Origin: a bacterium | Lineage (GTDB): Bacteria > SZUA-79 > Acidulodesulfobacterales > Acidulodesulfobacteraceae | Reading direction: 5' to 3' | Length of the DNA: 39,375 nt | Assembly (NCBI GenBank): GCA_003232385.1 | Contig: QIJE01000024.1 | Span: forward strand, 1-39,375 | In this document: positions 2,942 to 39,303 of the stretch, piece by piece | Numbering within the stretch: position 1 is the first letter of the stretch | How the letters are laid out: each line of letters begins with the position of its first letter | Translations under genes and position numbers: made by a program | Notes under the pieces: model-generated | What the model saw: the letters and a program-made list of their open reading frames with translations, nothing else | The model's database searches: none | Told to the model about the DNA's origin: nothing

Positions 2942-4030
2942 ATATAAAAGAAGACTCTTCGCCGGTATTTTATTATTAACCGACTTGGGCTTCTTAAGTT
3001 TCATTAAGTTTACTCCTGCCGGTTTTGCATATATAGAAAATGTACCGACCTTATTAAATACGGTCTTTACCAAAGCAATACCTTTATTGAAAGATTTGAA
3101 ACTGAATAAACTGCTTCTTTCAATACCCCTTGAGGAAACTAATACCAATCTGACCTTCCCTTTCACCCCGCTTATACCGCTGACGACATTACTATATTTA
3201 TCTACGGCAATAATTTTAATAATAAACGGCTTACCTGCAGGAACCTCTGAAATATTGGTCGATATAAGGAAATTATCAAAAGAAGACGGCATTATATCGA
3301 TATCTTTACCGATAAAAACATGATTCGCTCCATCGTAATTGATTTCAAAATTAAGTTGGCTTAAACCCGACCTATCCGAAATAAAACTAAATTTCCCTAT
3401 ACCGTTTTTTATATAACCGGTAGGAACAACCCTGGGACGAATTTTAAAATTATCGCCGGTAAGGTATATTTTTATACTTCCCTTGGGTTTAGGCATAAAA
3501 TCAACCGGATTGCCGTATTGATCCACGGCATATACTTTTACGCCGAAAGGCTCTCCGGCTATTGCCTTTTCCGGAGAAACTACTTTTAAATTATGAAAAG
3601 CACCCGGCATTATATGTATGGGTAGGCTTGAATCTTGAATCCCTTCGAAAGAAGATGAGACGGTTATCTTCCCCGCTTTTTTATACGAAAGATTAAAATT
3701 AATGATTCCGTTTTTAAATTCCGACGCCGGAATGTTCAATCGTTCCGTATTATGACTATTGCCTACACTTATTCCTATATTCAACCCTTCGTATTTTTTA
3801 GAAAAATTCGCAATAATATTTCCGTAATCGTCTAATGCCACTATTTTTACCTTAAATTTATTCCCTGCCGCTACCCTTTGGGGCGCACTTATTCTAAGGT
3901 TATTCAGCTTGCCCGGCATAATAGTAATGGTGGTAAAAGCATAACCGCTCTTAACGCCTGCCTGAATCAACAAAAAGAATAAAAATAAAACTGCTCCGTA
4001 AGTTATTACTTTTTTAAAATTAACATTCAT
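2936..4030 (-). CDS. Secreted protein with three Ig-like repeats (364 aa)
   Basis: I do not recognise a named family. Residues 1-31 are an N-terminal export signal: basic start, hydrophobic core, and a possible cleavage after GYA. The rest is three imperfect repeats of about 100 residues starting near 34, 138 and 246. Each opens with an I-x-I-MP-[GS] segment, then a leucine/isoleucine strand, a P-x-x-[AV]-x-A-G-[NEK]-x-F core and a V-D-x-Y-[GS]-N turn. This resembles bacterial Ig-like folds found in surface proteins, where the D-x-Y-G-N turn links strands. It follows the PilO-like/TPR gene by 53 bases, so the two are probably co-transcribed. A cell-envelope or adhesion role is inference. Confidence 0.7.
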   Translation of the reverse strand: MNVNFKKVITYGAVLFLFFLLIQAGVKSGYAFTTITIMPGKLNNLRISAPQRVAAGNKFKVKIVALDDYGNIIANFSKKYEGLNIGISVGNSHNTERLNIPASEFKNGIINFNLSYKKAGKITVSSSFEGIQDSSLPIHIMPGAFHNLKVVSPEKAIAGEPFGVKVYAVDQYGNPVDFMPKPKGSIKIYLTGDNFKIRPRVVPTGYIKNGIGKFSFISDRSGLSQLNFEINYDGANHVFIGKDIDIMPSSFDNFLISTNISEVPAGKPFIIKIIAVDKYSNVVSGISGVKGKVRLVLVSSRGIERSSLFSFKSFNKGIALVKTVFNKVGTFSIYAKPAGVNLMKLKKPKSVNNKIPAKSLLLYK

Positions 4031-4083
4031 AATTAAATTACCTCAATAAAATAATATTTTTAATAAAATAATTTCATTAATAT

Positions 4084-5175
4084 TTATCGTTTATTTCTTG
4101 CAATATTTAAATAATATTTAATTTTATCGTTTAAGGGATTTAACCTTGACGATTTTTTAAAATAATACAGACTAGCGGAAAAATTTTTATTTCGTAAATA
4201 AGCCAATCCAAGTATAAAATTAATTTGCCATAACTCTTTTTGCCTTAATGCCTTTTTTGCGTAAAAGATGGAATCATTGTAATCTTTTCTTTCGTAATTA
4301 TCAAGAGCGGCATTAGACAATGCCTTATAATTGTGTGGATTTAAGGCGATAGCATGCTTAAAGAAAGCCATTGCCCCGTTAAAATCACCCCTTAAGAATA
4401 ATAAAACCCCTTTCTTATTATAAGCGTCTGACTCTTCAGGTTTAGATTCGTGCAATATTATCGATATTTTTTTATAAGCACTCTTAGTGACACTCTTTTT
4501 ATATATAACAATATGCTTCCCTATTTTTTTAACGGGTTTTTCGACGGGAGCTACGTAAACAAACGGGTTTATCATACCGGCGCGTTCCGGCGGAGGTACA
4601 GGATTACCCTTTAATTTTTCTATACTCCGTAAGACTATCGTTTTTTTAATGGCATATACGAATAAATCGGATTTAAACGAGGCGTAATCGGTATTCCGCC
4701 TGCTTTTAGTTATTGTAAATTTTTCTAATATTATATTATAGTTAAATTCTAACATCTTTATAAATAAATATATATTTGCAGGCTTCCCGTGTCCTGCGAT
4801 TTCAAAAGAATAACGATTTATATCCTTACTTTTATTTATGCGAATGAATTTAACATAATTTAACTTTATTTTATACTTTTTGGACGCCCCTGCAATCCCG
4901 GAAGCAAAATATTCAGAATTTTCATTTAGAGAATGCTCGTATCTTAAAGCCGTAACCTTTATATCCTTAACTTCGTCTATATTTTTAGCAATATTTCCCT
5001 GCACGGTTTTGAGTTTATTAATCTTACCTATTACCGCTAAATTCAGCTTTCTCTCTCTTCCGGCAACCGTCATATAGAATAAAAAAAATATGAAAACGGA
5101 TGCTACTAAAATTAAACCTGCGATATAATAATAAATATTATTTTTCTGTTTCACAGTAGTATTGTCTATAGTCAA
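4084..5175 (-). CDS. Membrane protein with PilO-like region and C-terminal TPRs (363 aa)
   Basis: A single transmembrane helix spans about residues 14-37, followed by a probable coiled segment. Residues about 95-165 resemble the periplasmic part of PilO: a residue run around ISF/IAGHG, then a helix (IYLFIKMLEF) and a strand (IILEKFTI). After a proline-rich linker, at least three tetratricopeptide repeats fill about 245-361, with typical A-x-x-x-F-x-x-A-x-x-L-x-P spacing. PilO and TPR parts are not normally in one chain, so this may be a diverged pilus or secretion scaffold. The frame opens with TTG at 5175; an in-frame GTG at 5154 is the alternative start, and neither has a strong ribosome site. 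Function is not assigned. Confidence 0.65.
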   Translation of the reverse strand: MTIDNTTVKQKNNIYYYIAGLILVASVFIFFLFYMTVAGRERKLNLAVIGKINKLKTVQGNIAKNIDEVKDIKVTALRYEHSLNENSEYFASGIAGASKKYKIKLNYVKFIRINKSKDINRYSFEIAGHGKPANIYLFIKMLEFNYNIILEKFTITKSRRNTDYASFKSDLFVYAIKKTIVLRSIEKLKGNPVPPPERAGMINPFVYVAPVEKPVKKIGKHIVIYKKSVTKSAYKKISIILHESKPEESDAYNKKGVLLFLRGDFNGAMAFFKHAIALNPHNYKALSNAALDNYERKDYNDSIFYAKKALRQKELWQINFILGLAYLRNKNFSASLYYFKKSSRLNPLNDKIKYYLNIARNKR

Positions 5176-5257
5176 TTTATTTTACGTACCGCCCTTTTAA
5201 TGCTCAATAAACAATTATATAGAATTATTTAATGCGCCATTAATAAACTTTAGCCAA

Positions 5258-5638
5258 TCAGCTTTTGTAATAAGATGCCATAGAAGAAGCGGTCTCGTAA
5301 ACATTTATCCTTTTTACGCTGATATTGACATATTTGCCGACCTTAATCTTTTTTTCAAACTCCTCGTATATCAATCTTGCAATATTTTCTGCGGAGGGAT
5401 TAAGGCCGTTAAGAAAGTCTATTTCATTTATAAATTTGTGGTCCAGCATCTCCATTATTTCATTTAGGTATTTTTTAAGCAGTTTAAAATCTATGACTAA
5501 ACCTATATCGTTAAGCATATCCGATACTGTTATGAGTTCGACCTGCCAGTTATGCCCGTGGATATTTTCACATTTGCCGTTATATCCCTTCAGGGCATGG
5601 GCGGACGAAAAACCGGACGTAACCTTTAATTCATACAT
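5258..5638 (-). CDS. queD: 6-carboxytetrahydropterin synthase QueD (126 aa)
   Basis: A member of the 6-pyruvoyl-tetrahydropterin synthase family at the usual bacterial QueD length. It converts dihydroneopterin triphosphate to 6-carboxytetrahydropterin in queuosine/7-deazaguanine synthesis. The zinc ligands are His14 (SSAHAL), His27 and His29 (IHGHNW), with the catalytic Cys23 just before them. LDHKFIN carries the catalytic Asp-His pair, and ETAS near the C-terminus is the pterin-anchoring Glu. An AGGAG ribosome site lies before the ATG at 5638. No other queuosine gene is in the window. A consensus -35 hexamer (TTGACA, minus strand, near 5755) lies upstream but lacks a convincing -10. Confidence 0.92.
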   Translation of the reverse strand: MYELKVTSGFSSAHALKGYNGKCENIHGHNWQVELITVSDMLNDIGLVIDFKLLKKYLNEIMEMLDHKFINEIDFLNGLNPSAENIARLIYEEFEKKIKVGKYVNISVKRINVYETASSMASYYKS

Positions 5639-26002: not shown

Positions 26003-27034
26003 TTACGATATTTTTTCGTCATATCTTGATTCGATCTTGGCAAACTTATATACGCCTAACGATAAAAGCCATGCCGTCAGAAGTATGCCGACTATCGCTC
26101 CGCCCATCATCGCAAAAGAAAGGTTATTCAAAAAATCCCACGGCTCTCCGGTTAAATGAAACGTAGAACCTACGACCTGAAATGCTTCCACCGTTCCTAT
26201 GCAAAACGCTAAGAAAACGGAGATACTCGTAATAGATATATTATAAAATATCTTTCTTATCGGATTTAAAAACGCCCAGCTGTAAGCAAACTGCATTACT
26301 ACACCGTCGGTAGAATCAAGCAACATCATACCGGAAGCAAATAGCAAGGGCAGCGTCAAGACATCTATGAGCGGTCTGCCGGATAAGGCAAATACCGCCG
26401 ACATTGAAAGTATCGCAACTTCCGAGGCCGTATCAAAACCCAGACCGAATAGTATACCGACGAAAATCATCTGCCAGCTTGACGTTATAAGTTTCATCAC
26501 TCCGCCGAAAAAACGAAACATAAAGCCTCTTTTTAAAAGCTCTTCTTCCATTTTCTTATTACTGACATTCTTAAAATTCCTTGCCACTTTTATTATGCTT
26601 ATAAGAATAAGCAAATTCATAAATGCAATTATATATAAAAATAAAGCCGATATCCCCGTTCCAAGCACATTGCTTATACCGCCCAATACCGGATATGCCT
26701 TGACGACGAACTCCCCTAGGATAACGGTTACTATCGTTAAAACAAAAATAGAAAGCGAATGCCCGAGCGAAAAGAAAAAACCGACTCCGACCGGTTTTTT
26801 ACCGTCATTAATCAACTTTCTGGTGGTATTGTCTATGGCGGCAATATGGTCCGCATCAAGCGCATGTTTTAAACCGAAGAAAACGGCAAGTAAACCTAAA
26901 CTGAATAAAACAGGAAAAACACCGGCCCTCTCAACCAGGATAATTACGGAAAACAAGAGGAAAGAGATTAAAAATACATAAAGAAGAATGAGCCTCTGTT
27001 TGAAACTCAACGGGTTAAAAAGGTGTGAAAACAT
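26003..27034 (-). CDS. NiCoT-family nickel/cobalt permease, hydrogenase-linked copy (343 aa)
   Basis: A HoxN/NixA-type high-affinity nickel/cobalt importer with about eight transmembrane helices. The helix II signature is GLKHALDADHIAAIDNTTR, whose His-x4-Asp-His is essential in the family. Other family blocks are FFSLGHSLSIF, LGFDTASEVAIL and the late STDGVVMQFAYSWAF. It is very similar to the second copy at 38254-39303, in protein and in DNA (47 identical bases at 26256-26302). It lies 94 bases downstream of hypB, so it most likely supplies nickel to hydrogenase. A palindrome sits in its leader, whereas the other copy has a riboswitch. Metal preference is inference from context. Confidence 0.92.
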   Translation of the reverse strand: MFSHLFNPLSFKQRLILLYVFLISFLLFSVIILVERAGVFPVLFSLGLLAVFFGLKHALDADHIAAIDNTTRKLINDGKKPVGVGFFFSLGHSLSIFVLTIVTVILGEFVVKAYPVLGGISNVLGTGISALFLYIIAFMNLLILISIIKVARNFKNVSNKKMEEELLKRGFMFRFFGGVMKLITSSWQMIFVGILFGLGFDTASEVAILSMSAVFALSGRPLIDVLTLPLLFASGMMLLDSTDGVVMQFAYSWAFLNPIRKIFYNISITSISVFLAFCIGTVEAFQVVGSTFHLTGEPWDFLNNLSFAMMGGAIVGILLTAWLLSLGVYKFAKIESRYDEKIS

Positions 27035-27128: not shown

Positions 27129-27854
27129 TTATTTAGAAACCTTAGAGTTAATATTATTCTCCATAAAAGAGATGAAATCGGATAATCCGTTATTCTCAAT
27201 ATTTCCCGCTTTTTCATTCTTTTTGCAAAATGTTTCAAAGATTGCCAAATCTTTATTTACCGATAATGCATTCTCTTTTATCTTTGTAATACTTGAATCT
27301 AAAAAAGGCAAAAGGTCGATTTTATTTATGATCATAACCTTAGATTTGTAAAAAGCGGCGGGGTATTTCAAGGGTTTGTCGTCGCCCTCCGTTACGGAAA
27401 GAACAACCGCTTTGATATCCTCGCCAAGATTAAATGACGTGGGACAAACAAGATTCCCCACATTTTCTATAAATATTATATCCGCATCCTTTCTATTTAA
27501 ATTATTGAGCGCGCCGTTTACCATTTTTGCATCCAGATGGCACGTCCCGTTTGTAACAATTTGATATGCGGGTATGTCTAATTCATCTATTCTTTTTTTA
27601 TCTAAATCCGTCTCGACATCTCCCTCTATAACCGCCGGCTTAAAACCGTCCGATTTTAGAATAGGTACTATGGATTCCAATAACGACGTCTTGCCCGAAC
27701 CGGGAGAACTTAAAAAATTTATAACGAAGGCTTTACCGAATAACCTTTTATTCTTATTTGCAATGGCCTCATTTGTTTCAAGGGCGTTTCTTTGAATTGA
27801 TAACGACCTGCCGACACGCCTCCGACTTGAATTTAGCATAGCAATATGTCCCAT
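27129..27854 (-). CDS. hypB: Hydrogenase nickel incorporation GTPase HypB (241 aa)
   Basis: HypB is the SIMIBI-class GTPase that drives nickel delivery to the hydrogenase large subunit with HypA. Walker A is SPGSGKTS (50-57). The metal-site Cys105-His106 lies in NGTCHLDAKMV, switch-region Cys137 in NVGNLVCPTSFNLGED, and the guanine-specificity motif is NKID (177-180). The N-terminal CxxCGC nickel motif and the His-rich stretch seen in some HypBs are absent. It lies 57 bases after hypA and ahead of NiCoT copy 1. A later ATG at 27839 is a possible alternative start, and no strong ribosome site favours either. Confidence 0.94.
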   Translation of the reverse strand: MGHIAMLNSSRRRVGRSLSIQRNALETNEAIANKNKRLFGKAFVINFLSSPGSGKTSLLESIVPILKSDGFKPAVIEGDVETDLDKKRIDELDIPAYQIVTNGTCHLDAKMVNGALNNLNRKDADIIFIENVGNLVCPTSFNLGEDIKAVVLSVTEGDDKPLKYPAAFYKSKVMIINKIDLLPFLDSSITKIKENALSVNKDLAIFETFCKKNEKAGNIENNGLSDFISFMENNINSKVSK

Positions 27855-27911: not shown

Positions 27912-28151
27912 TTAATCAACCAGAATTTCCTGAATGGTTATTTCATCACCGTCATTTGAAATAAAATTCAGCAAAACATCCTTAAACCTCTCGTCATCTA
28001 AATTTTGAAAAGCAAAAATTAGATAATTTTTATCTACCCCGGAGTATTTGCCGATATTTAATTTTATCTCGTCGACACTTTTTACACCTTCCAAATATTC
28101 ATTTTTTTGAAGCGTATCCACTATTTCCAATGCTATAGAAAATTCATGCAT
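27912..28151 (-). CDS. hypA: Short HypA lacking the zinc-finger domain (79 aa)
   Basis: HypA passes nickel to hydrogenase with HypB and normally has about 113-118 residues. The nickel-binding N-terminus MHEFSIALEIVDTL (His2) and the core strand/helix VDEIKLNIGKYSGVDKNYLIFAF are present. So is the usual final strand (EITIQEILVD). The zinc ribbon with its two CxxC pairs, normally between the last helix and that strand, is missing; no cysteine occurs in the protein. The frame is continuous, so this is an internal loss, not a truncation. It diverges from the hydrogenase operon and precedes hypB. Nickel binding could remain; the role of zinc in ordering the protein is lost. Confidence 0.8.
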   Translation of the reverse strand: MHEFSIALEIVDTLQKNEYLEGVKSVDEIKLNIGKYSGVDKNYLIFAFQNLDDERFKDVLLNFISNDGDEITIQEILVD

Positions 28152-28309: not shown

Positions 28310-29638
28310 ATGGGAAACGGCAAAGGAAAACAACCCTTAAAAAATAAAAAAGATAATTCTTCCCCGATACTAAATAAAGATAGTAAATCCAATCTTAAGT
28401 GGGACCCCCTAAGGAACATCGCAGACGACCCCGATGAGGTTTTACGAAAGACGGACGAACGATTGGATAACCTCGAAAAAGAATACTTTAACGATGAAAA
28501 AGACAAAAGTGATAATATAGGAAATATTTTCGGTTTACACGGACTAACAAGAAGAGACTTCATTAAATGGACATCTCTTGTAACATCGGCACTGATGCTC
28601 CCGTATATATTTAAGCCGAGAGTGGCGAGGGCAGCCAATATACTTACGAGAACCCCGTTTATATGGCTCGAGATGTCGGACTGTATGGGGAATACGGAGG
28701 CATTTCTTAGAACCGCTCATCCCACACCCGCAGAAATCATTCTCAGCTATGTTAGCGTCAACTACATGGAATCGATAATGGCTCCCGCCGGTTATCAAGC
28801 GGAAGCGAGAATGGTTGAAACTGTCAAAAAATATAAGGGTAAATATATACTGGTGGTTGAAGGGGCAATCCCAATGGGTCTTGACGGAAAATACCTAACG
28901 ATAGGGGCAAAGGGGAAATCCGGATTAAAAATTACCCAAGAAGTATCTAAAAATGCCGGGGTTATAATTGCAGCGGGAAATTGCGCCTCTTACGGGGGTA
29001 TACCCGCCGCAAATCCGAACCCTACCTCTGCCGTCGGTCTCAGCTCCGTTACGGACAGAAAAGTGATAAATATACCTGCTTGCCCCGTTAATGCAGTAAA
29101 TTTAGTAGGTACGCTTATTGAATACGTATTGATAGGAAAACCCCCGCAGCTTGACAGTATCGGGAGACCCCTCTGGGCGTACTCCGAAAGACTTCATGAT
29201 ACCTGTTACAGAAGGGCGCATTTTGAAGCGGGTGAATATGTCAAAAACTGGGGCGATGACGGGGCAAAAAAACAATATTGCCTATACATGATGGGGTGCA
29301 AGGGGCCTTTTACGTGGAACAATTGCACTGTTGTCGAATATAATCAGGATTTAAGTTTTCCCATGAGGGCCGGACATGGTTGCATAGGGTGTTCCCAGCC
29401 GAAGTTTTGGGATAGAATGACCCCGTTCGAAGAACCTAACGAAAGTGCGAAAATTACGCTCCCGATGGTAGAGGCCACCGCCGATGAATTCGGTGCGGCA
29501 CTTTTTGGGGCTGCCGGCGCAGGAATTGCGGCTCATGCAATATACACGGGTGTCAAAAAGAAAAGAGAGAAAAAGAAAATATCTAAAAATGAGAAAAACA
29601 ATTCGGAAAAGGATAAAAGTAAGGACGATAAAAAATAA
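28310..29638 (+). CDS. [NiFe] hydrogenase small subunit, Tat-exported, membrane-anchored (442 aa)
   Basis: The electron-transfer subunit of a group 1 uptake hydrogenase. A twin-arginine signal (RRDFIKW at 81-87, hydrophobic core, cleavage near ARA109) is preceded by an unusual 80-residue charged extension; no internal ATG offers a later start. The mature part has proximal-cluster residues Cys125, a Cys in AAGNCASYGG and one in IPACPVN. The expected second Cys of the first motif is Asn128 (DCMGNTEAF). Distal (LHDTC, QYCLYMMGC) and medial (NNC, CIGC) ligands are all present. A C-terminal hydrophobic helix (about 393-412) with a lysine-rich tail anchors it to the membrane. Confidence 0.94.
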   Translation: MGNGKGKQPLKNKKDNSSPILNKDSKSNLKWDPLRNIADDPDEVLRKTDERLDNLEKEYFNDEKDKSDNIGNIFGLHGLTRRDFIKWTSLVTSALMLPYIFKPRVARAANILTRTPFIWLEMSDCMGNTEAFLRTAHPTPAEIILSYVSVNYMESIMAPAGYQAEARMVETVKKYKGKYILVVEGAIPMGLDGKYLTIGAKGKSGLKITQEVSKNAGVIIAAGNCASYGGIPAANPNPTSAVGLSSVTDRKVINIPACPVNAVNLVGTLIEYVLIGKPPQLDSIGRPLWAYSERLHDTCYRRAHFEAGEYVKNWGDDGAKKQYCLYMMGCKGPFTWNNCTVVEYNQDLSFPMRAGHGCIGCSQPKFWDRMTPFEEPNESAKITLPMVEATADEFGAALFGAAGAGIAAHAIYTGVKKKREKKKISKNEKNNSEKDKSKDDKK

Positions 29639-29666: not shown

Positions 29667-31358
29667 ATGTCAAGAAAGATCATAGTTGATCCGATAACGA
29701 GAATAGAAGGTCACCTGCGAATAGAGGCGATTCTTAACGGCAGCGGTAATGAAATAACCGAAGCATATTCGTCAAGCACCTTGTTCAGGGGCATAGAGCT
29801 CATACTTAACGGAAGAGCCCCCGAGGATGCAGGGCTTTTTGCTCAAAGAATTTGCGGGGTTTGTACCTATTCCCATTATGAGGCTGCCACATGGGCGGTT
29901 GAAAATGCACTTGGGATACACCCTCCGAAAAATGCAAGAATTGCACGAAATATATTAAAAGGCACGCAAATGGTTCAAGACCACTTAATACATTTTTACC
30001 AGCTTGCAGGATTAGACTGGGTTGATATAGTTTCTGCACTTAGTGCTAATCCGAAGAAAACGATGGATTTAGCATATGCCTATACTAAAACTCCTTATAA
30101 TGCAAGTTTGGCAAGGTTTGAAGAGGTGAAAACAAGGCTAAACGCCTTCGTTAAGTCTGGACAGCTCGGTCCATTCGCAGGCGGCTATTGGGGAAACCCG
30201 TCTTACAAGCTTCCGCCCGAAGGAAACCTTTTAATAGCATCACACTATTTGGATAACCTCAATATATTAAGGATACCTGCGCAAATTATAGCGATTTTAG
30301 GCTCTAAAGACCCGCATCCGCAAACTTGCGTCGTCGGAGGAATTTCATCTATCGCAGATATGATCAATCCTCACAGAATGGATGATATCCTATTTAGAAT
30401 GAATAAAATTACGGATTTTGTTAATAATGCATATATCCCCGATTTACTCACCGCTGCCCAATTTTATAAAGACGAAGCCCTTCAAGGTATCGGCGGGGGC
30501 CTTAAGAATTATTTATCTTACGGCGCATTTCCCCAAACAGACGATGAAAATCCTGAGCACGACTACTTGGCAAGGGGCGTTATATTTGACAGGGATATCG
30601 GCAACGTCATGGACTTAGACGAGAAAAAGATAACGGAATTCGTTACTCATTCATGGTATAAATATCCGAATGAAAAGACGGGGCTTAATCCGTCCGTAGG
30701 TGTTACCGCTCCTAATTATACGGGTTTAAATAAAAACGGCAGCCTTAAAGAAGACGAAAAATACAGCTGGGTTAAATCTCCAAGATATGAAAACAGAGCC
30801 GTGGAGGTAGGGCCCCTTGCCAGGACTCTTATAGCTTACGCGAAGGGCAACGAAAAAATTAAAACATTGGTAGACTATGTCTTAAAAACCTCCGGGCTGC
30901 CCGTAACGGCACTATTTTCAACTCTCGGAAGAACGGCGGCAAGGGGGATAGAGGCAAAATATTTAGCCGATGCATTAGAACCGTGGACTATAGAGCTGAT
31001 GAAAAATGTGGCGATAGACCAATCAAGCTGGACAAATTACGATATGCCTTCAAAAGAAATTATAGGTATCGGACTTGACGAAGCACCGAGGGGGGCATTG
31101 GGACATTGGGTCAGAATAAAAAATAAACGGATAACACACTATCAAATAGTCGTTCCGACGACATGGAACGCTTCCCCGAGAGACGGTTTTAATAACCCCG
31201 GAGCATATGAAGCCTCTTTGGTCGGAGTTAAACTTGCAAATGCTTCCGAACCCCTTGAAATTTTAAGGACGGTGCATTCATTTGACCCGTGTTTGGCTTG
31301 CGCCGTTCACATAATTGATCCGAAAACAGACGAAGTAAAAAAATTTAAAATCTGTTAA
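29667..31358 (+). CDS. [NiFe] hydrogenase large (catalytic) subunit (563 aa)
   Basis: This subunit carries the Ni-Fe(CN)2CO active site. The N-terminal ligands are Cys63 and Cys66 in RICGVCTYSH, and the C-terminal ligands Cys542 and Cys545 in DPCLACAVH. The N-terminal RIEGHLRIE is also typical. The maturation protease is expected to cut after His548, removing 15 residues (IIDPKTDEVKKFKIC). A strong GGAGGGGG ribosome site precedes the ATG, 28 bases after the small-subunit stop. It has no export signal and would be carried through Tat by its partner. Group 1 assignment rests on the partner's Tat signal and the cytochrome b. Confidence 0.96.
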   Translation: MSRKIIVDPITRIEGHLRIEAILNGSGNEITEAYSSSTLFRGIELILNGRAPEDAGLFAQRICGVCTYSHYEAATWAVENALGIHPPKNARIARNILKGTQMVQDHLIHFYQLAGLDWVDIVSALSANPKKTMDLAYAYTKTPYNASLARFEEVKTRLNAFVKSGQLGPFAGGYWGNPSYKLPPEGNLLIASHYLDNLNILRIPAQIIAILGSKDPHPQTCVVGGISSIADMINPHRMDDILFRMNKITDFVNNAYIPDLLTAAQFYKDEALQGIGGGLKNYLSYGAFPQTDDENPEHDYLARGVIFDRDIGNVMDLDEKKITEFVTHSWYKYPNEKTGLNPSVGVTAPNYTGLNKNGSLKEDEKYSWVKSPRYENRAVEVGPLARTLIAYAKGNEKIKTLVDYVLKTSGLPVTALFSTLGRTAARGIEAKYLADALEPWTIELMKNVAIDQSSWTNYDMPSKEIIGIGLDEAPRGALGHWVRIKNKRITHYQIVVPTTWNASPRDGFNNPGAYEASLVGVKLANASEPLEILRTVHSFDPCLACAVHIIDPKTDEVKKFKIC

Positions 31359-31394: not shown

Positions 31395-32159
31395 ATGGAA
31401 GATAAAGAGAAAAGATACGGCGAGATACGATTAATTCATAGAATGACGCTTATAAAAAGAATTATCCACTGGTCGCTTTTTCTTGCCATTATTAATAATA
31501 TAATTACCGGTTTTTATATAGCGTATCCCTTTCTTATATTTGGAAAAACTCCTACACAATTAAATTCTATCTCAACCGGGATTCTAAGTTCGGGAGAGAC
31601 ATACAGGGCGTTTATAATGACGTGGATGAGGGAATTTCATTTTATCGGCGCAATCGTGATAGACGTTACCTTTTTTGTCTGGCTGTATTTAGCTTTTTTC
31701 TCATGGAAAGAACCTCTTTACAAAAGTTTCGTGCCCTTTGGAGGTAAAATGGCGGAAGCGGGGAAAATGATTAAGCATTATTTTACGCTTAAAGACAGGC
31801 CTGCAACGACCCGTTATCAAGACCCTTTAAATGCCATAATATTCATTATTTTTCATCTGCTTATTTTATTTCAAATGTTAACGGGATTCCAGCTGTATGT
31901 GGCTTCGTTTACCGGAACTTCGGCCATAGGCGGTTGGTGGCCGTGGATTCTACATTTTACGACCGACTGGACGCTTGTCGCATTCGGCGGGCTGACCGGT
32001 GTCACTCTTGTTCATCTGTTTGTAATGTGGATAATCATAATATTCATGATTTATCATGTCTATATAGAAATTTGGCGTACGGTAATGTGGAAAGAGGGAG
32101 ATATCTCAATACCGTTCGGGGGCTATAAGTATACGAGAAATAAAATAGAATACAAATAA
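31395..32159 (+). CDS. Hydrogenase b-type cytochrome subunit (254 aa)
   Basis: A di-haem membrane cytochrome b of the HyaC/HupC type that takes electrons from the small subunit to the quinone pool. Four or five transmembrane helices carry the expected histidines: RIIHWSLFL, REFHFIGAI, IIFHLLILFQ, LVHLFVMW and MIYHVYIEIW. The final helix and the following RTVMWKEGD resemble the family end. It is third in the operon, 36 bases after the large subunit, behind an AAGGGG ribosome site. Quinone type is not visible, but MqnA in the window argues for menaquinone. Confidence 0.92.
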   Translation: MEDKEKRYGEIRLIHRMTLIKRIIHWSLFLAIINNIITGFYIAYPFLIFGKTPTQLNSISTGILSSGETYRAFIMTWMREFHFIGAIVIDVTFFVWLYLAFFSWKEPLYKSFVPFGGKMAEAGKMIKHYFTLKDRPATTRYQDPLNAIIFIIFHLLILFQMLTGFQLYVASFTGTSAIGGWWPWILHFTTDWTLVAFGGLTGVTLVHLFVMWIIIIFMIYHVYIEIWRTVMWKEGDISIPFGGYKYTRNKIEYK

Positions 32160-32182
32160 AACATAATTGGAATTTTTTGCTT

Positions 32183-32689
32183 ATGACGGGAATTGTGGGA
32201 ATCGGCAATCTGCTGTTGAAGGACGAGGGATTCGGGATTCACTTCATTGATTACCTTAGAAAAAAATATATATTTGACCCGAATATAAGGGTAATCGATG
32301 GAAGTACACTGGGTTACGGACTTTTGGACGATATATTTAATTTTGACAACGTTATCGTCATAGATGCTCTAAAAACAGATGAAAAACCGGGGGGGATATT
32401 TAAATTCGACAGCGAAAACATTCCTGTTAATTTAATGAAGAAAACCGCCCATGATGTTGAATTTATCGATGTAATAACCATGTGCAAACTACAGGGACAT
32501 AACCCCAAAATAATAATTTTTGCAATATCTCCCGAGGACGCTGAAGGCGTCGGAATGGATATCTCCCTTCCCCTAAAAAAGGCTATACCGCGCCTTGAAG
32601 CCCTTGTACTGGAAGAAATAAAAATATTGGGCCTAAAATGGAGCATAAATACTGATATGCAAGAGAATTACGCGAACGGAATCTCTTAA
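32183..32689 (+). CDS. Hydrogenase maturation protease, HyaD/HybD family (168 aa)
   Basis: This endopeptidase trims the large-subunit C-terminus after nickel insertion. The nickel-contacting residues correspond to the Glu in GIGNLLLKDEGFG, the Asp in VIVIDALK and the His in LQGHNPKII. I start at the ATG 32183 because GGAA lies about 10 bases upstream; an in-frame TTG at 32177 adds two residues but is too close to that site. It is the last gene of the structural operon and ends 12 bases from the convergent hypF stop. No second protease is in the window. Confidence 0.92.
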   Translation: MTGIVGIGNLLLKDEGFGIHFIDYLRKKYIFDPNIRVIDGSTLGYGLLDDIFNFDNVIVIDALKTDEKPGGIFKFDSENIPVNLMKKTAHDVEFIDVITMCKLQGHNPKIIIFAISPEDAEGVGMDISLPLKKAIPRLEALVLEEIKILGLKWSINTDMQENYANGIS

Positions 32690-32701: not shown

Positions 32702-35212
32702 TTATTTATCGTCTATCAGCCCGCCGTAAACTGCCTGTCCTAAAGAAATACCGCCGTCATTCGGGGGTATTTTTCTGTTAAAAAAGACGCTGAATCCGTT
32801 CTCGTTCAAAATTTTAGCGGTTTTTTCCGGCAAAAACGCATTCTGAAATACTCCGCCGCTCATGCAAGCGTTTTTACAGCCTATTTTTAAAGCGATATCT
32901 TTTATAACTGAGGCAATAGTATTTATAAACCTCTCTGCTATATCTTTATATAATGCCGTAAGTGATCCTGAATCTTCGGGATTACGATTATTGATGATAA
33001 TTTCTATAATCTGAATCAGCATCGGACCGTAATCGACTATAAACAGGTCGTCTATTTTATCGTAATCTACGGCGTACCCGAAGCAATCGGATTTTTCTAT
33101 CTCATTATCATACGAGTCCCGCTTATTTTCAGCCTCCTCCTTGCCGCATAGGTCTTCTAAATATACCGCTGCCTCTCCTTCATAAGAGATATCCCTTTTG
33201 AATCCGCACAAACAAGAAACGGCATCAAAAATTCTCCCGCAAGAAGATGTATATGAAGAGTTTATCCCTCTACTCCACATCTTGAAAAATATGTTTATAT
33301 TTTTCGCCGGAATACCCGTTAGTTTCAGCAAGGTATCGGGGTTAAAATCTTTTTTGTCCGGGGAGCAAACGCTTAATTTTCTCATAAAATCGTAATTTTC
33401 GACATACCTGCCTCTATTTTCGGTAAAAAGAGTAAACAGGAGGCTTAAAAGAACCCTTTGGGGCGACTTAACGGCTTTATCGCCCCCTATGAGCCTAAAT
33501 CTTTTAAAGGTCCCTACTCTCTTTAAATGTATATAATTTCCCTTAAAAAATTCCCCTCCCCAAATACTTCCGTCATCTCCATAACCCGTTCCGTCAAATG
33601 CCACGCCAAAAACATCGTCTTTCAATCCTAAGCCGTTTTCAGCCATACATGAAATAATGTGAGATCTATGATGCTGCAGGGCTACATACTTTATACCCTT
33701 TTTCTTCGCCAAATCTTTCGCCCATTTTGTATTATCGTAACGAGGATGACTATCGCAAACAATGAGGCTCGGCTTAAAATTATAAAATGTTTCAAAGTCT
33801 TCCACATTTTCGGTAAAATTAATAAAGCTATCTATATTATCTAAGTCTCCGTTATGCTGACTCAAGATAACCGCCCCCTTACTGTCGTCATCGTTAATAT
33901 TGCCGCTATACGCCATTGCAAACGTGTTTTTAAGATAAGAGCCCATCGCAAGAACATTTCTTTTCAATCCAAAAGGCAATTCAATAGGATCCGGAACATA
34001 GCCCCTTGAACGTCTGATAAAAACCCGATCATTACCCTTAGTACCTTTAATTATTTTTATGACGGAATCATCGCATCTTCTATAAATATCTCTATTATGA
34101 ATTAAAAAACCGTCCGCGATGGATTTTAATTTAAAAAGAGCCTCGTCATTGTCCTTAACGATAGGCTGTCCGGCGATATTCGCCGATGTTGCTACCAACG
34201 GTTTATGAAAAAGGCTGAAAATAATATGATGGATCGGCGTGTAAGGCAATAAAACACCTATATTTTTTGTCCCACAATTCACGAAATAAGAAAGATTTCG
34301 CTTATCTTTCAATAAAACGATAGGCCTCCTCCTTGATAACAACAAAGACATCGAAATATTATCGGCATAGGCATATTTTGAAACCTCGCATATATCTTTA
34401 AACATGACGGCAAACGGTTTCTTCGGCCTATTTTTTCGCCCCCTTAATAATTTTACGGCATCGTCGTTTGCGGCATCGGCCATCAAATGAAAACCGCCCA
34501 CTCCTTTAACACAAACGATACCGCCGTTTTCTAAAATCTGCACGATGGTTTTAATAGCCTTAAAACCCTTTATTTTCTCATCCTTTTTCGAGCCTAACGA
34601 GTCCGGGACAATAAACTCGACCTCCGGCCCGCATGCGAAGCATCCGTTGGGCTCTGCATGAAACCGCCTGTTTGTCGGATCCTCATATTCAATTTCACAC
34701 TCAGGGCACATTTTAAACTTATCCATTGCAGTCGATACCCTGTCGTAAGGTAATTTTTTAGTGATCGTAAATCTCGGACCGCAATCGGTACAATTTATAA
34801 ACGGGTAGAAATACCTCCTATCGGAAGGATCCAAGAGTTCTTTTAAACATTCGTCACAGGTTGCAATATCAGGGGGGATTATAAGATTTAAATTTTCCGC
34901 ATTATTTGTGTCATAGGTTCTATCGGATTTTTTAATTTCAAAATCCCTATAAAAGACCGGTTTTAAAAAACGAAAGGTTTTTACGTCAATAACGGCAAGG
35001 GGCGGTTTTTCGGAATTTAATGATTTCATAAAATTCATTAAATCATTTTCTATTCCTTGAGCATCAATTGTAACGCCGCCTAAGTCATTTAAAATATTTC
35101 CTCTAATGGAGTATTTTTTTGCAAGTTTAAAAACAAATGGCCTAAAACCTACGCCTTGAACTCTACCCGATATATTAATTATGACCCTTTTTAAATGTTC
35201 ATTATCTTTCAT
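32702..35212 (-). CDS. hypF: Carbamoyltransferase HypF (836 aa)
   Basis: HypF makes the carbamoyl group that becomes the active-site cyanide, transferring it from carbamoyl phosphate to HypE. Domains in order: acylphosphatase-like (GRVQGVGFRPFVFKLA, 16-31), two Cys4 zinc fingers (CDEC...CTDC and CPEC...CFAC, about 115-195), a YrdC-like domain with KGVGGFHLMADA, and a Kae1-like domain (HHRSHI, FDGTGYGDDG, SGGVFQNAFL). It is somewhat longer than the common 750 residues, mainly in the C-terminal half. It is fourth in the minus-strand set hypC-D-E-F, 29 bases after hypE. Confidence 0.96.
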   Translation of the reverse strand: MKDNEHLKRVIINISGRVQGVGFRPFVFKLAKKYSIRGNILNDLGGVTIDAQGIENDLMNFMKSLNSEKPPLAVIDVKTFRFLKPVFYRDFEIKKSDRTYDTNNAENLNLIIPPDIATCDECLKELLDPSDRRYFYPFINCTDCGPRFTITKKLPYDRVSTAMDKFKMCPECEIEYEDPTNRRFHAEPNGCFACGPEVEFIVPDSLGSKKDEKIKGFKAIKTIVQILENGGIVCVKGVGGFHLMADAANDDAVKLLRGRKNRPKKPFAVMFKDICEVSKYAYADNISMSLLLSRRRPIVLLKDKRNLSYFVNCGTKNIGVLLPYTPIHHIIFSLFHKPLVATSANIAGQPIVKDNDEALFKLKSIADGFLIHNRDIYRRCDDSVIKIIKGTKGNDRVFIRRSRGYVPDPIELPFGLKRNVLAMGSYLKNTFAMAYSGNINDDDSKGAVILSQHNGDLDNIDSFINFTENVEDFETFYNFKPSLIVCDSHPRYDNTKWAKDLAKKKGIKYVALQHHRSHIISCMAENGLGLKDDVFGVAFDGTGYGDDGSIWGGEFFKGNYIHLKRVGTFKRFRLIGGDKAVKSPQRVLLSLLFTLFTENRGRYVENYDFMRKLSVCSPDKKDFNPDTLLKLTGIPAKNINIFFKMWSRGINSSYTSSCGRIFDAVSCLCGFKRDISYEGEAAVYLEDLCGKEEAENKRDSYDNEIEKSDCFGYAVDYDKIDDLFIVDYGPMLIQIIEIIINNRNPEDSGSLTALYKDIAERFINTIASVIKDIALKIGCKNACMSGGVFQNAFLPEKTAKILNENGFSVFFNRKIPPNDGGISLGQAVYGGLIDDK

Positions 35213-35241: not shown

Positions 35242-36310
35242 TTAGCAAATTCGAGGTAAAAGTTCACCGGACGGATAATCCAACAATCTATCTACGCCGT
35301 AAATACCTCGCAAAATCACCTTGCCTTTAAATCTGCCATCACTTCTATTTTTATCTCCCGCAATTCCGATTACCTTGGCATTCTTACCGGACGGATGAGA
35401 CCTGAGAATCTCTATTACCCTATTCTCATACCCGGACTTGACCGCAAAGATTACCCTCCCCTCACATGCAAGTTGATAGGGTTCAAAACCCAGAAACTCG
35501 CAGAAACCCTTCACGCTATCCTTTATTGGAATCTCATTCTCTTCTATGTGAATGTTAATACCCGCAGCAGAAGCCCACTCGTTAAGGACCGCGGCAAGCC
35601 CGCCCCTTGTTGCATCTCTGATAGCGCTGACTCGGCACCCTTGCTTTAAAACAAGTTCAATCATGTCCCAAAGGGAAGCACAGTCGCTTTCTATTGCCAC
35701 ATCCATATCTATGCCGTCTCTTTGCGACATGACGGCGCTTCCGTGGTCCCCGACATCGCCGGAAACAATAATGACGTCCCCGTCCGTTATATTATAAACG
35801 GAAATATTTTCATATAAAACTTCGCCTATTCCGCTTGTATTTATAAAAATACCGTCCGCTTTCCCCACGGGGACAACCTTTGTATCTCCGGTCACAATCT
35901 TAACCCCGCTTTTTTTAGCCTCTTGAACCACCGAATTTATAATCTTTTTTAAATCTTCCATTAAAAACCCTTCCTCTATTATGAGTCCCAAGCTCAAAAA
36001 AAGCGGCTTAGCCCCCATAACCGAGAGGTCGTTTACCGTTCCCGCAACAGATAATTTACCTATATCTCCGCCCTTGAAAAATATCGGGCTTACCGTGAAG
36101 CTGTCTGTGGTAAAGGCTATCTTTTTCGGAAATGGCGGCGTCTTCCAGTAACTTTATTTGATTTTGTCCGTTATCGTAATCTATAATATTCGAATCAGGT
36201 CCGTAAAATTCCGCGAATAATATATCTTTAATCAATGCAGCGGTCTCTCTTCCGCCACCGCCGTGGGAAAGCAAAATCTTTTCATCTCCGTTCAATTTTT
36301 TATAATTCAT
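35242..36310 (-). pseudogene. hypE: HypE gene interrupted by a one-base frameshift
   Basis: HypE dehydrates the HypF-made thiocarboxamide to thiocyanate on its C-terminal cysteine, supplying cyanide to iron. The start is the ATG at 36310 (MNYKKLNGDE), four bases past the hypD stop. The first frame runs through LLSHGGGGRET and LEDAAISEK, then becomes nonsense and stops at 36056. From about 36120 the next frame reads IAFTTDSFTVSPIFF and GGDIGKLSVAGTVNDLSVMGAKP, and continues to the conserved PRIC end at 35242. The switch falls near a five-A run at 36122-36126. The interval length equals 356 codons plus one base. All other parts look intact, so a sequencing error, recent mutation or +1 recoding are all possible. 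Confidence 0.85.
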
Positions 36311-36314
36311 AGGA

Positions 36315-37427
36315 TTAAAAATTACGATATTTATAATACGCCGAGCATGCCCCTTCACTGGAAACCATACACGCCCCCACTGGATTTTCGGGAATACAAA
36401 CCTTGCCGAATAAGGGGCAGTCAACCGGTTTTAGCTTTCCTCTAAGTATTTCTCCGCATTTGCAACCCGTATTTTCTTTAAAGTCTTCATTTAGTTCTAA
36501 TGCTTTTAATTCATCCGCAAAAACATATTCGGCATCAAAATATTTAAACTCATCCCTTAATCTTAAACCGCTTTTTGCAATATTGCCGAAACCCCTCCAT
36601 TCAAACTCGTCCCTTACCCTAAAATATTTGTTGACTAAATCTTGAGCCTTTTTATTACCCTCTTCTTTAACTGCTCTTTTATATGCAATTTCCACCGAAG
36701 GGTTATTGTCGTTAATCTGCCTGACTATCAAAAGTGTTCCGCTTAAAATATCATACGGTTCAAATCCGGAAATAACCGCCGATTTCTTGTATTTTTGCAC
36801 AATATCGCTATAGATGCCGCTTCCGGTGATAACGCTTACATGACCCGGACAAATAAATCCATCTATTAAACTGTCATTTGAATCCAAAATAGCGTTTATC
36901 GGCGGAGGAACGAGAACGTGGTTAATATAAAAGAACACATTTTCTATTTTTTTTGTTATTACTTCTTCAAGAAGCGCCGCCGTCATGGGTGTAGTGGTTT
37001 CGAACCCGATTGCGAAAAAAACAATCTTTTTATTCTTATTGCTCTTATCCCCTACTATTTTTATGATATCAAGCGGGGAATATATCATTCTAATATCTTT
37101 CCCCTTAGCCCTTTCTTTTATGAGGGAACTATTTGTTCCGGGAACCCTCATTATATCCCCGTAAGCTACAAGTATGACGTCCGGCAAACCCGCAATACAG
37201 ATGGCCGCGTCTATTCTTTTTATCGGCATAACGCAAACGGGGCAACCCGGACCGTGAAGAAAGTTTATTTTGTCTTTGATTAAGGCATTTAATCCATATT
37301 TCATAATAGAGTGGGTATGCCCGCCGCATATCTCCATTATATTTATCGTTTCTTTGGCCTCGCTGTTTATTAAAAAAACCAAGCGTTCTATGTCGTTTTT
37401 TTGCTTAAAAGAGGAATATATGCTCAT
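36315..37427 (-). CDS. hypD: Hydrogenase maturation protein HypD (370 aa)
   Basis: HypD is the [4Fe-4S] scaffold that, with HypC, assembles Fe(CN)2CO. Conserved redox cysteines are Cys34 in MEICGGHTHS, and Cys62 and Cys65 in GPGCPVC. The C-terminal cluster ligands are spread over CKCGEI, VDCPLFGKVCIP and GACMVSSEGACSAYY. The family segment FFAIGFETTTP is present. Length is typical. It begins 22 bases after hypC and ends four bases before hypE. Confidence 0.96.
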   Translation of the reverse strand: MSIYSSFKQKNDIERLVFLINSEAKETINIMEICGGHTHSIMKYGLNALIKDKINFLHGPGCPVCVMPIKRIDAAICIAGLPDVILVAYGDIMRVPGTNSSLIKERAKGKDIRMIYSPLDIIKIVGDKSNKNKKIVFFAIGFETTTPMTAALLEEVITKKIENVFFYINHVLVPPPINAILDSNDSLIDGFICPGHVSVITGSGIYSDIVQKYKKSAVISGFEPYDILSGTLLIVRQINDNNPSVEIAYKRAVKEEGNKKAQDLVNKYFRVRDEFEWRGFGNIAKSGLRLRDEFKYFDAEYVFADELKALELNEDFKENTGCKCGEILRGKLKPVDCPLFGKVCIPENPVGACMVSSEGACSAYYKYRNF

Positions 37428-37449: not shown

Positions 37450-37683
37450 TTAACCCATGTTCATTTTATTTTCTATTTCTTTAAATAAGCCGAGGCTTTC
37501 TATCGCCTCTTTTTCGTCTATTTTTTGCATCGCATAGCCCACATGAATAAGTAAATATTCGCCGACATTGGCCCGCTCTTCCAAGAGCATGGTAGAAATA
37601 AGCCTTTTGGAACCCATGGTATCGACCACTACGGTGCTGTCGCCTTTTATTTCTATGACTTTGGATGGGATTGCAAGGCACAT
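37450..37683 (-). CDS. hypC: Hydrogenase assembly chaperone HypC (77 aa)
   Basis: A small chaperone that binds HypD and the large-subunit precursor. It opens with MCLAIPSKVIEI, where Cys2 is the essential exposed cysteine after Met removal. The beta-barrel core ends with the conserved GEYLLIHVGYAMQKIDEKEA. Standard length. It is first of hypC-D-E-F and lies behind a good promoter at 37744-37772. Confidence 0.95.
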   Translation of the reverse strand: MCLAIPSKVIEIKGDSTVVVDTMGSKRLISTMLLEERANVGEYLLIHVGYAMQKIDEKEAIESLGLFKEIENKMNMG

Positions 37684-38253: not shown

Positions 38254-39303
38254 TTATTCATCCCCCTCTATATCTAACCCGCTTCCGCCATATCTTGATT
38301 CAACCTTAGCAAACTTATATACGCCTAATGATAAGAGCCATGCCGATGCAAGTATGATCGCTATCATTCCCCCCAGTACCGCGAAGGAAAGGTGATTAAG
38401 GAAATCCCAAGGCTCTCCGGCTAAATTAAATTTCATACCTACGACCTGAAGCCACTCTATCGTTCCTATACAAAACGCTAAAAAAATAGAAATGCTTGTA
38501 ATAGATATATTATAAAAAATCTTCCTTATCGGATTTAAAAACGCCCAGCTGTAAGCAAACTGCATTACTACGCCGTCCGTTGAATCCAATAATACCATGG
38601 CGGATGAAAATACCATCGGTAGTATCAAGACATCTATGAGCGGCCTGCCGTTAGCGGCAAATATTGCCGACATTGAAAGTATTGCAACTTCCGTTGCCGT
38701 ATCGAAACCTATGCCGAATAATATGCCGACGAAGAACATGTGCCAACTCGACGTTATAAGCTTCATTACTCCTCCAAAAAAACGAAACATAAAGCCTCTC
38801 TTTAAAAGCTCGGCTTCCATTGCTTTATTGTCGGCATTCCTGTATTTTCTTACCACCTTTATTATGCTTATAAGGATAAGCAGGTTCATAAACGCGATTA
38901 TGTATAAAAATAAAGCCGATATCCCTGTCCCAAGCATATCGCCTATGCCACCCAACACGGGATATTTCTTGATTATAAACTCCCCTAGAATGACGGTTAT
39001 TACTGTTAAAGTGAAAATAGAAAGCGAATGACCGAGGGAAAAGAAGAACCCGACTCCGACCGGTTTTTTACCGTCGTTCATTAATTTTCTGGTGGTATTA
39101 TCTATCGCGGCAATATGGTCCGCATCCATCGCATGCTTTAAACCGAAAAAAAAGGCAAGCGAACCTAGGCCTAATAGGGCAGGAAAAACCCTTGACCGAT
39201 CAATTAAGATAATAATGGAAATTACAACGAAAGAGATTAAAAACGCATAAAGAAGAATGAGTCTTCGTTTAAAACTCGATAAATTAAAAAGGTGTGAGAA
39301 CAT
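38254..39303 (-). CDS. NiCoT-family nickel/cobalt permease, cobalamin-linked copy (349 aa)
   Basis: A close paralogue of the transporter at 26003-27034, with the same helix II signature (GLKHAMDADHIAAIDNTTR) and overall layout. Differences cluster in the first helix, around residues 275-305 and at the C-terminus, which has an extra acidic GGSGLDIEGDE tail. It is followed after two bases by cbiX and preceded by the end of a probable cobalamin riboswitch, so cobalt import for B12 is its likely job. A GGGAGGT ribosome site precedes the ATG. The two copies are direct repeats about 12 kb apart that flank the hydrogenase region. Confidence 0.92.
   Translation of the reverse strand: MFSHLFNLSSFKRRLILLYAFLISFVVISIIILIDRSRVFPALLGLGSLAFFFGLKHAMDADHIAAIDNTTRKLMNDGKKPVGVGFFFSLGHSLSIFTLTVITVILGEFIIKKYPVLGGIGDMLGTGISALFLYIIAFMNLLILISIIKVVRKYRNADNKAMEAELLKRGFMFRFFGGVMKLITSSWHMFFVGILFGIGFDTATEVAILSMSAIFAANGRPLIDVLILPMVFSSAMVLLDSTDGVVMQFAYSWAFLNPIRKIFYNISITSISIFLAFCIGTIEWLQVVGMKFNLAGEPWDFLNHLSFAVLGGMIAIILASAWLLSLGVYKFAKVESRYGGSGLDIEGDE

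Follow-up and report, generated by a model that had tools for sequence, protein, structure and literature searches.

The 39,375-nucleotide stretch of DNA analysed here (the window) carries a short hypA gene within a cluster for a [NiFe]-hydrogenase and its maturation. The hypA gene lies immediately upstream of hypB and is oriented divergently from an operon for the small and large hydrogenase subunits and a maturation protease. The contig also encodes hypF, hypE, hypD, hypC and two NicO-type nickel transporters. The features are:

26003-27034, minus strand: NicO/NicT-type nickel transporter (Pfam PF03824)
27129-27854, minus strand: hypB GTPase, 241 aa (TIGR00073, 220 bits, cut-off 121)
27912-28151, minus strand: hypA without zinc domain, 79 aa, putative nickel ligands M1, H2, E3 and D40
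28310-29638, plus strand: [NiFe]-hydrogenase small subunit (TIGR00391 above cut-off; Pfam)
29667-31358, plus strand: [NiFe]-hydrogenase large subunit, group 1 like (Pfam PF00374, 663 bits)
31395-32159, plus strand: probable b-type cytochrome subunit (from position and hydrophobic sequence only)
32177-32689, plus strand: hydrogenase maturation protease, HupD type (Pfam PF01750)
32702-35212, minus strand: hypF (TIGR00143, 750 bits)
35242 to about 36310-36424, minus strand: hypE, frameshifted (from similarity to hypE of the relative G001)
36315-37427, minus strand: hypD, 370 aa (from similarity to the G001 hypD, a Pfam PF01924 match)
37450-37683, minus strand: hypC, 77 aa (from its MCLAIP start and position only)
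38254-39303, minus strand: second NicO-type nickel transporter (named by sequence resemblance)

Among solved structures, the large subunit comes closest to large-subunit chains of the periplasmic and Hyd-1 types. The probable cytochrome gene has a counterpart of 73% identity at the equivalent position in G001. A motif alignment shows that HypB still has the metal ligands in CHLD and NLVCP as well as the L-x-I motif at its N-terminus for docking to HypA. The two nickel transporters are closely similar to each other and bracket the hydrogenase/hyp cluster. A frameshift near 36120-36150 interrupts hypE: one frame stops soon after LEDAAISEKDS and another restarts at KKIAFTTDSFTVSPIFF. The break may be genuine or may have arisen in assembly; hypE is intact in G001.

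A HypA variant without the zinc domain

The open reading frame at 27912-28151, counted with its stop codon, coincides exactly with hypA and translates to MHEFSIALEIVDTLQKNEYLEGVKSVDEIKLNIGKYSGVDKNYLIFAFQNLDDERFKDVLLNFISNDGDEITIQEILVD, which starts with MHEFS and ends with ITIQEILVD. Like members of the HypA/HybF family (PF01155), the product carries the N-terminal Met-His-Glu nickel motif, and its gene adjoins hypB and [NiFe]-hydrogenase genes. Cysteine is absent from all 79 residues and with it the CxxC-Xn-CxxC zinc domain of the family; the protein is therefore classed as a variant derived from HypA rather than as a canonical member. Full-length relatives are typically 112-117 residues long, in agreement with the original prediction that about 35 residues were lost internally.

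The Pfam HypA profile matches with 40.5 bits (cut-off 28.9), only residues 1-54 aligning, to positions 1-54 of the 112 profile positions. The score against TIGR00100, the NCBI hypA equivalog, is 31.9 bits, far below its cut-off of 88.1, and the short HypAs from Gemmatimonadota described below reach 25-32 bits. Surveys that require TIGR00100 would thus call such genomes HypA-negative, and short HypAs are likely to be under-annotated.

An AlphaFold2 model based on 17 aligned natural sequences has a pLDDT of 91 and the order helix-strand-helix-strand-strand. The top 14 PDB matches in a Foldseek search were all HypA. VIA-align placed 77 of the 79 model residues on residues 1-134 of Thermococcus kodakarensis HypA (3a43_B; Z 10.7, rmsd 1.9 Å, 22% identity), and the next, unrelated structures followed at Z 5.8. 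The predicted model thus spans the nickel domain including the final strand, the inserted zinc domain being cleanly missing from it. The same order of elements was predicted for one short HypA from Gemmatimonadota (pLDDT 69 from a shallow alignment). Frame, translation and superposition bear out the original observation: a cysteine-free HypA of 79 residues that keeps both the MHE start and the last strand.

In comparison with HypA/HybF (PF01155, TIGR00100; T. kodakarensis 3a43, Helicobacter pylori 6g81), short HypA has in common the N-terminal MHE, the two helices and three-stranded sheet, Asp or Glu at position 40 and the last strand, and both kinds of gene are found in an operon with hypB and hydrogenase. 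It differs in having no zinc domain or CxxC pairs, in being about 35 residues shorter and in the direct joining of strands 2 and 3.

The only HypA of its family

No second HypA, full-length or other, was found in the window genome (1.54 Mb in 40 contigs, 95.5% complete). Named relatives, among them Candidatus Acididesulfobacter diazotrophicus and many metagenome-assembled genomes (MAGs), assign the family, known from acid-mine MAGs, to Candidatus Acidulodesulfobacteriota. In 22 of 30 family genomes there is exactly one HypA, always the 79-residue form without zinc site; it is encoded beside hypB, usually with a group 1 [NiFe]-hydrogenase in the neighbourhood as well. The short form beside hypB, which the original prediction had suggested looking for in related genomes, is thus fixed in the family. 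Neither a full-length hypA elsewhere nor its accompaniment, absence of the short copy from relatives, was seen.

Other matches to the HypA profile in the 30 genomes (up to E 10) remained below the cut-off, and nearly all of them covered the zinc-ribbon part only. Proteins of this kind might provide the zinc function in trans, which we regard as very unlikely: such matches are generic, and the hydrogenase/hyp clusters of the window and G001 contain no stand-alone two-CxxC gene, a search for small genes of this type having returned only the fingers of HypF and, in G001, repetitive frames.

The MHE start is invariant in 20 relatives of the window protein, and purifying selection acts on the short gene (Nei-Gojobori dN/dS with a median of 0.13 in 83 unsaturated pairs). 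Since an identical length without indels recurs in 22 separate genomes, short hypA is not an accident of frameshift or assembly. The frameshift in the neighbouring hypE might raise the suspicion that hypA too is degenerating or misassembled, but this is scarcely credible and is contradicted by the 22 indel-free genomes, the low dN/dS and the confidently predicted fold.

A group 1 large-subunit gene, or a fragment of it at a contig edge, occurs in 21 of the 22 HypA-bearing genomes (19 with a complete gene, two more with a contig-end piece) versus one of the eight without HypA, and this single case is again a contig-end piece. Presence of short HypA follows presence of hydrogenase in the family. 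In five HypA-bearing genomes a divergent NiFe large-subunit-like gene is present in addition, and the short HypA is still the only one.

Short HypAs in other lineages and probable repeated loss

Our surveys covered bacterial genomes, most of the named sources being MAGs. A contig scan revealed a matching arrangement in two Gemmatimonadetes MAGs, where short hypA lies between a protease gene and hypB. Among 200 Gemmatimonadota genomes, 52 had a HypA match: 34 short, 13 full-length and five unread. No full-length copy was present in 27 of 29 checked genomes with a short HypA, and the other two carry both forms. The wider bacterial sample, about 350 further genomes, contributed 110 HypA sequences; the tail has one CxxC or more in 106 of these and none in four. 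Two of these zinc-less cases were traced into their own classes, with 24 short versus four full-length HypAs in one and seven short versus about 32 full-length in the other. Zinc-less HypAs occur in at least three lineages beyond the window family and Gemmatimonadota.

In total, 88 distinct short HypAs of 79-100 residues were read, usually as the sole HypA, and all are devoid of the four zinc-site CxxC positions. Many of the genes adjoin hypB, hypC, hypD or a protease gene; in one class the neighbourhood is an Mrp/Mbh-like complex. With the short form found in many Gemmatimonadota and other lineages outside the acid-mine family, acidity as the cause of zinc-domain loss is weakened. A link to a single hydrogenase type is unsupported, as short HypA accompanies group 1 operons and the Mrp/Mbh-like complex alike.

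Trees were built on the 79-80 columns of the nickel domain. The best tree has five changes between the full and the short form, and six when more lineages are included. The short forms of Gemmatimonadota are sister to the full-length HypAs L222, L227 and L229 of the same phylum (support 100/99 and 99/95), which keep both CxxC pairs and thus illustrate the condition from which the short forms of this lineage arose. Three short HypAs from the class of G401 cluster with full-length ones from the same class (98/87). On our reading, no fewer than three changes follow from the strongly supported forks. That all short HypAs go back to one origin is disfavoured by these three or more changes and by the roughly six of the best tree, but their union in a single clade was not rejected by an AU test (p 0.167 and 0.111, on about 80 columns), so that independent losses of the zinc domain are likely though unproven. 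As the full form is prevalent, we infer that the direction was loss rather than gain. The original reading of the window protein as a HypA minus its zinc finger is supported by sequence, fold, conservation and these full-length sister genes.

Some neighbouring arrangements may be mentioned here. A protein of the prismane/CO-dehydrogenase family, about 680-700 residues long, is encoded beside hypC, hypD and a zinc-less hypA at three loci (L093, positions 3198-5291; L302; L303), the Pfam match being that of the L093 copy only. In genome G356 (L309, 2969-4126), an apparent fusion of HypB with a hydrogenase maturation protease, a single frame of 385 residues, lies next to a zinc-less HypA. The Gemmatimonadota genome G263 has two zinc-less HypAs at separate places (L241, G263:C1:227498-227734; L055, 1501-1758) and no full-length one; in the second, HK replaces HE after the first residue.

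Nickel site and proposed hand-off to the hydrogenase

The zinc site of HypA is credited with structural, pH-sensing and regulatory roles, and it is present in every solved HypA structure that we found. In H. pylori HypA, it senses pH and nickel (PMC7055735), and with a single zinc-site cysteine mutated, hydrogenase falls to 9-60% of the wild-type level (PMC7055735, PMC5557546). The zinc domain thus matters in the full-length protein. Because the short form is the sole HypA throughout the family and recurs in several unrelated lineages, the zinc part is probably dispensable for making hydrogenase.

The nickel site of H. pylori HypA consists of M1, H2, E3 and D40 (PMC5557546). Among the 88 short HypAs, M1 is conserved in all (alternative starts counted as Met), H2 in 87, E3 in 86 and Asp or Glu at position 40 in 79. 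Binding of HypB to HypA requires two hydrophobic residues at the N-terminus of HypB (PMC3287977), and the HypBs encoded next to short HypAs retain both the hydrophobic-x-hydrophobic docking motif and the metal ligands. In T. kodakarensis, His98 of HypA is an extra nickel ligand that forms a nanomolar site in the HypAB complex (PMC7055735); judged from its place in the sequence, it should fall in the part missing from short HypA.

These observations make it quite probable that short HypA is a functional HypA cut down to its nickel-binding domain, its nickel function being suggested by the ligands, the gene neighbourhood and the sole-copy status. It might instead be a docking adaptor that joins HypB to the hydrogenase precursor while HypB carries the nickel, and a review describes HypA as scaffolding HypB onto the large subunit (PMC7055735). 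The intact metal ligands of the neighbouring HypBs are compatible with this role, but an adaptor would have no need of M-H-E, which has to stand at the very N-terminus to serve for nickel and is retained by nearly all 88 proteins, nor of the acidic residue 40. Their retention argues against a pure adaptor, which we consider unlikely.

For a cut-down nickel chaperone, the following course may be proposed. In an ordinary HypA ancestor, the zinc domain between strands 2 and 3 would have been removed, leaving a direct hairpin. Short HypA would take nickel at M1, H2 and E3 with D40 and pair with HypB via the conserved N-terminal motif of the latter. Nickel would then pass to a large subunit already holding Fe(CN)2CO; we infer that the nickel domain could perform this hand-off unaided, or perhaps with an additional ligand supplied by a partner. 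On balance we lean towards the view that bacteria have lost the zinc domain several times, with about six changes on the best tree. HypA and HypB would then pass on nickel independently of zinc: instead of the zinc-domain-assisted site of the HypAs studied so far, the nickel-domain site would serve by itself, perhaps with a ligand contributed by HypB or the hydrogenase.

The literature searched, in which few subscription journals were represented, yielded no account of a HypA lacking zinc. Natural zinc-free sole HypAs beside intact hydrogenase operons separate the requirements of nickel delivery from those of regulation, and offer structural and mechanistic studies a compact chaperone that is free of zinc. 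A parallel is given by ribosomal protein S4, for which zinc and non-zinc versions have been reported (PMC3087516). S4 is a ribosomal protein; in short HypA a whole domain is gone.
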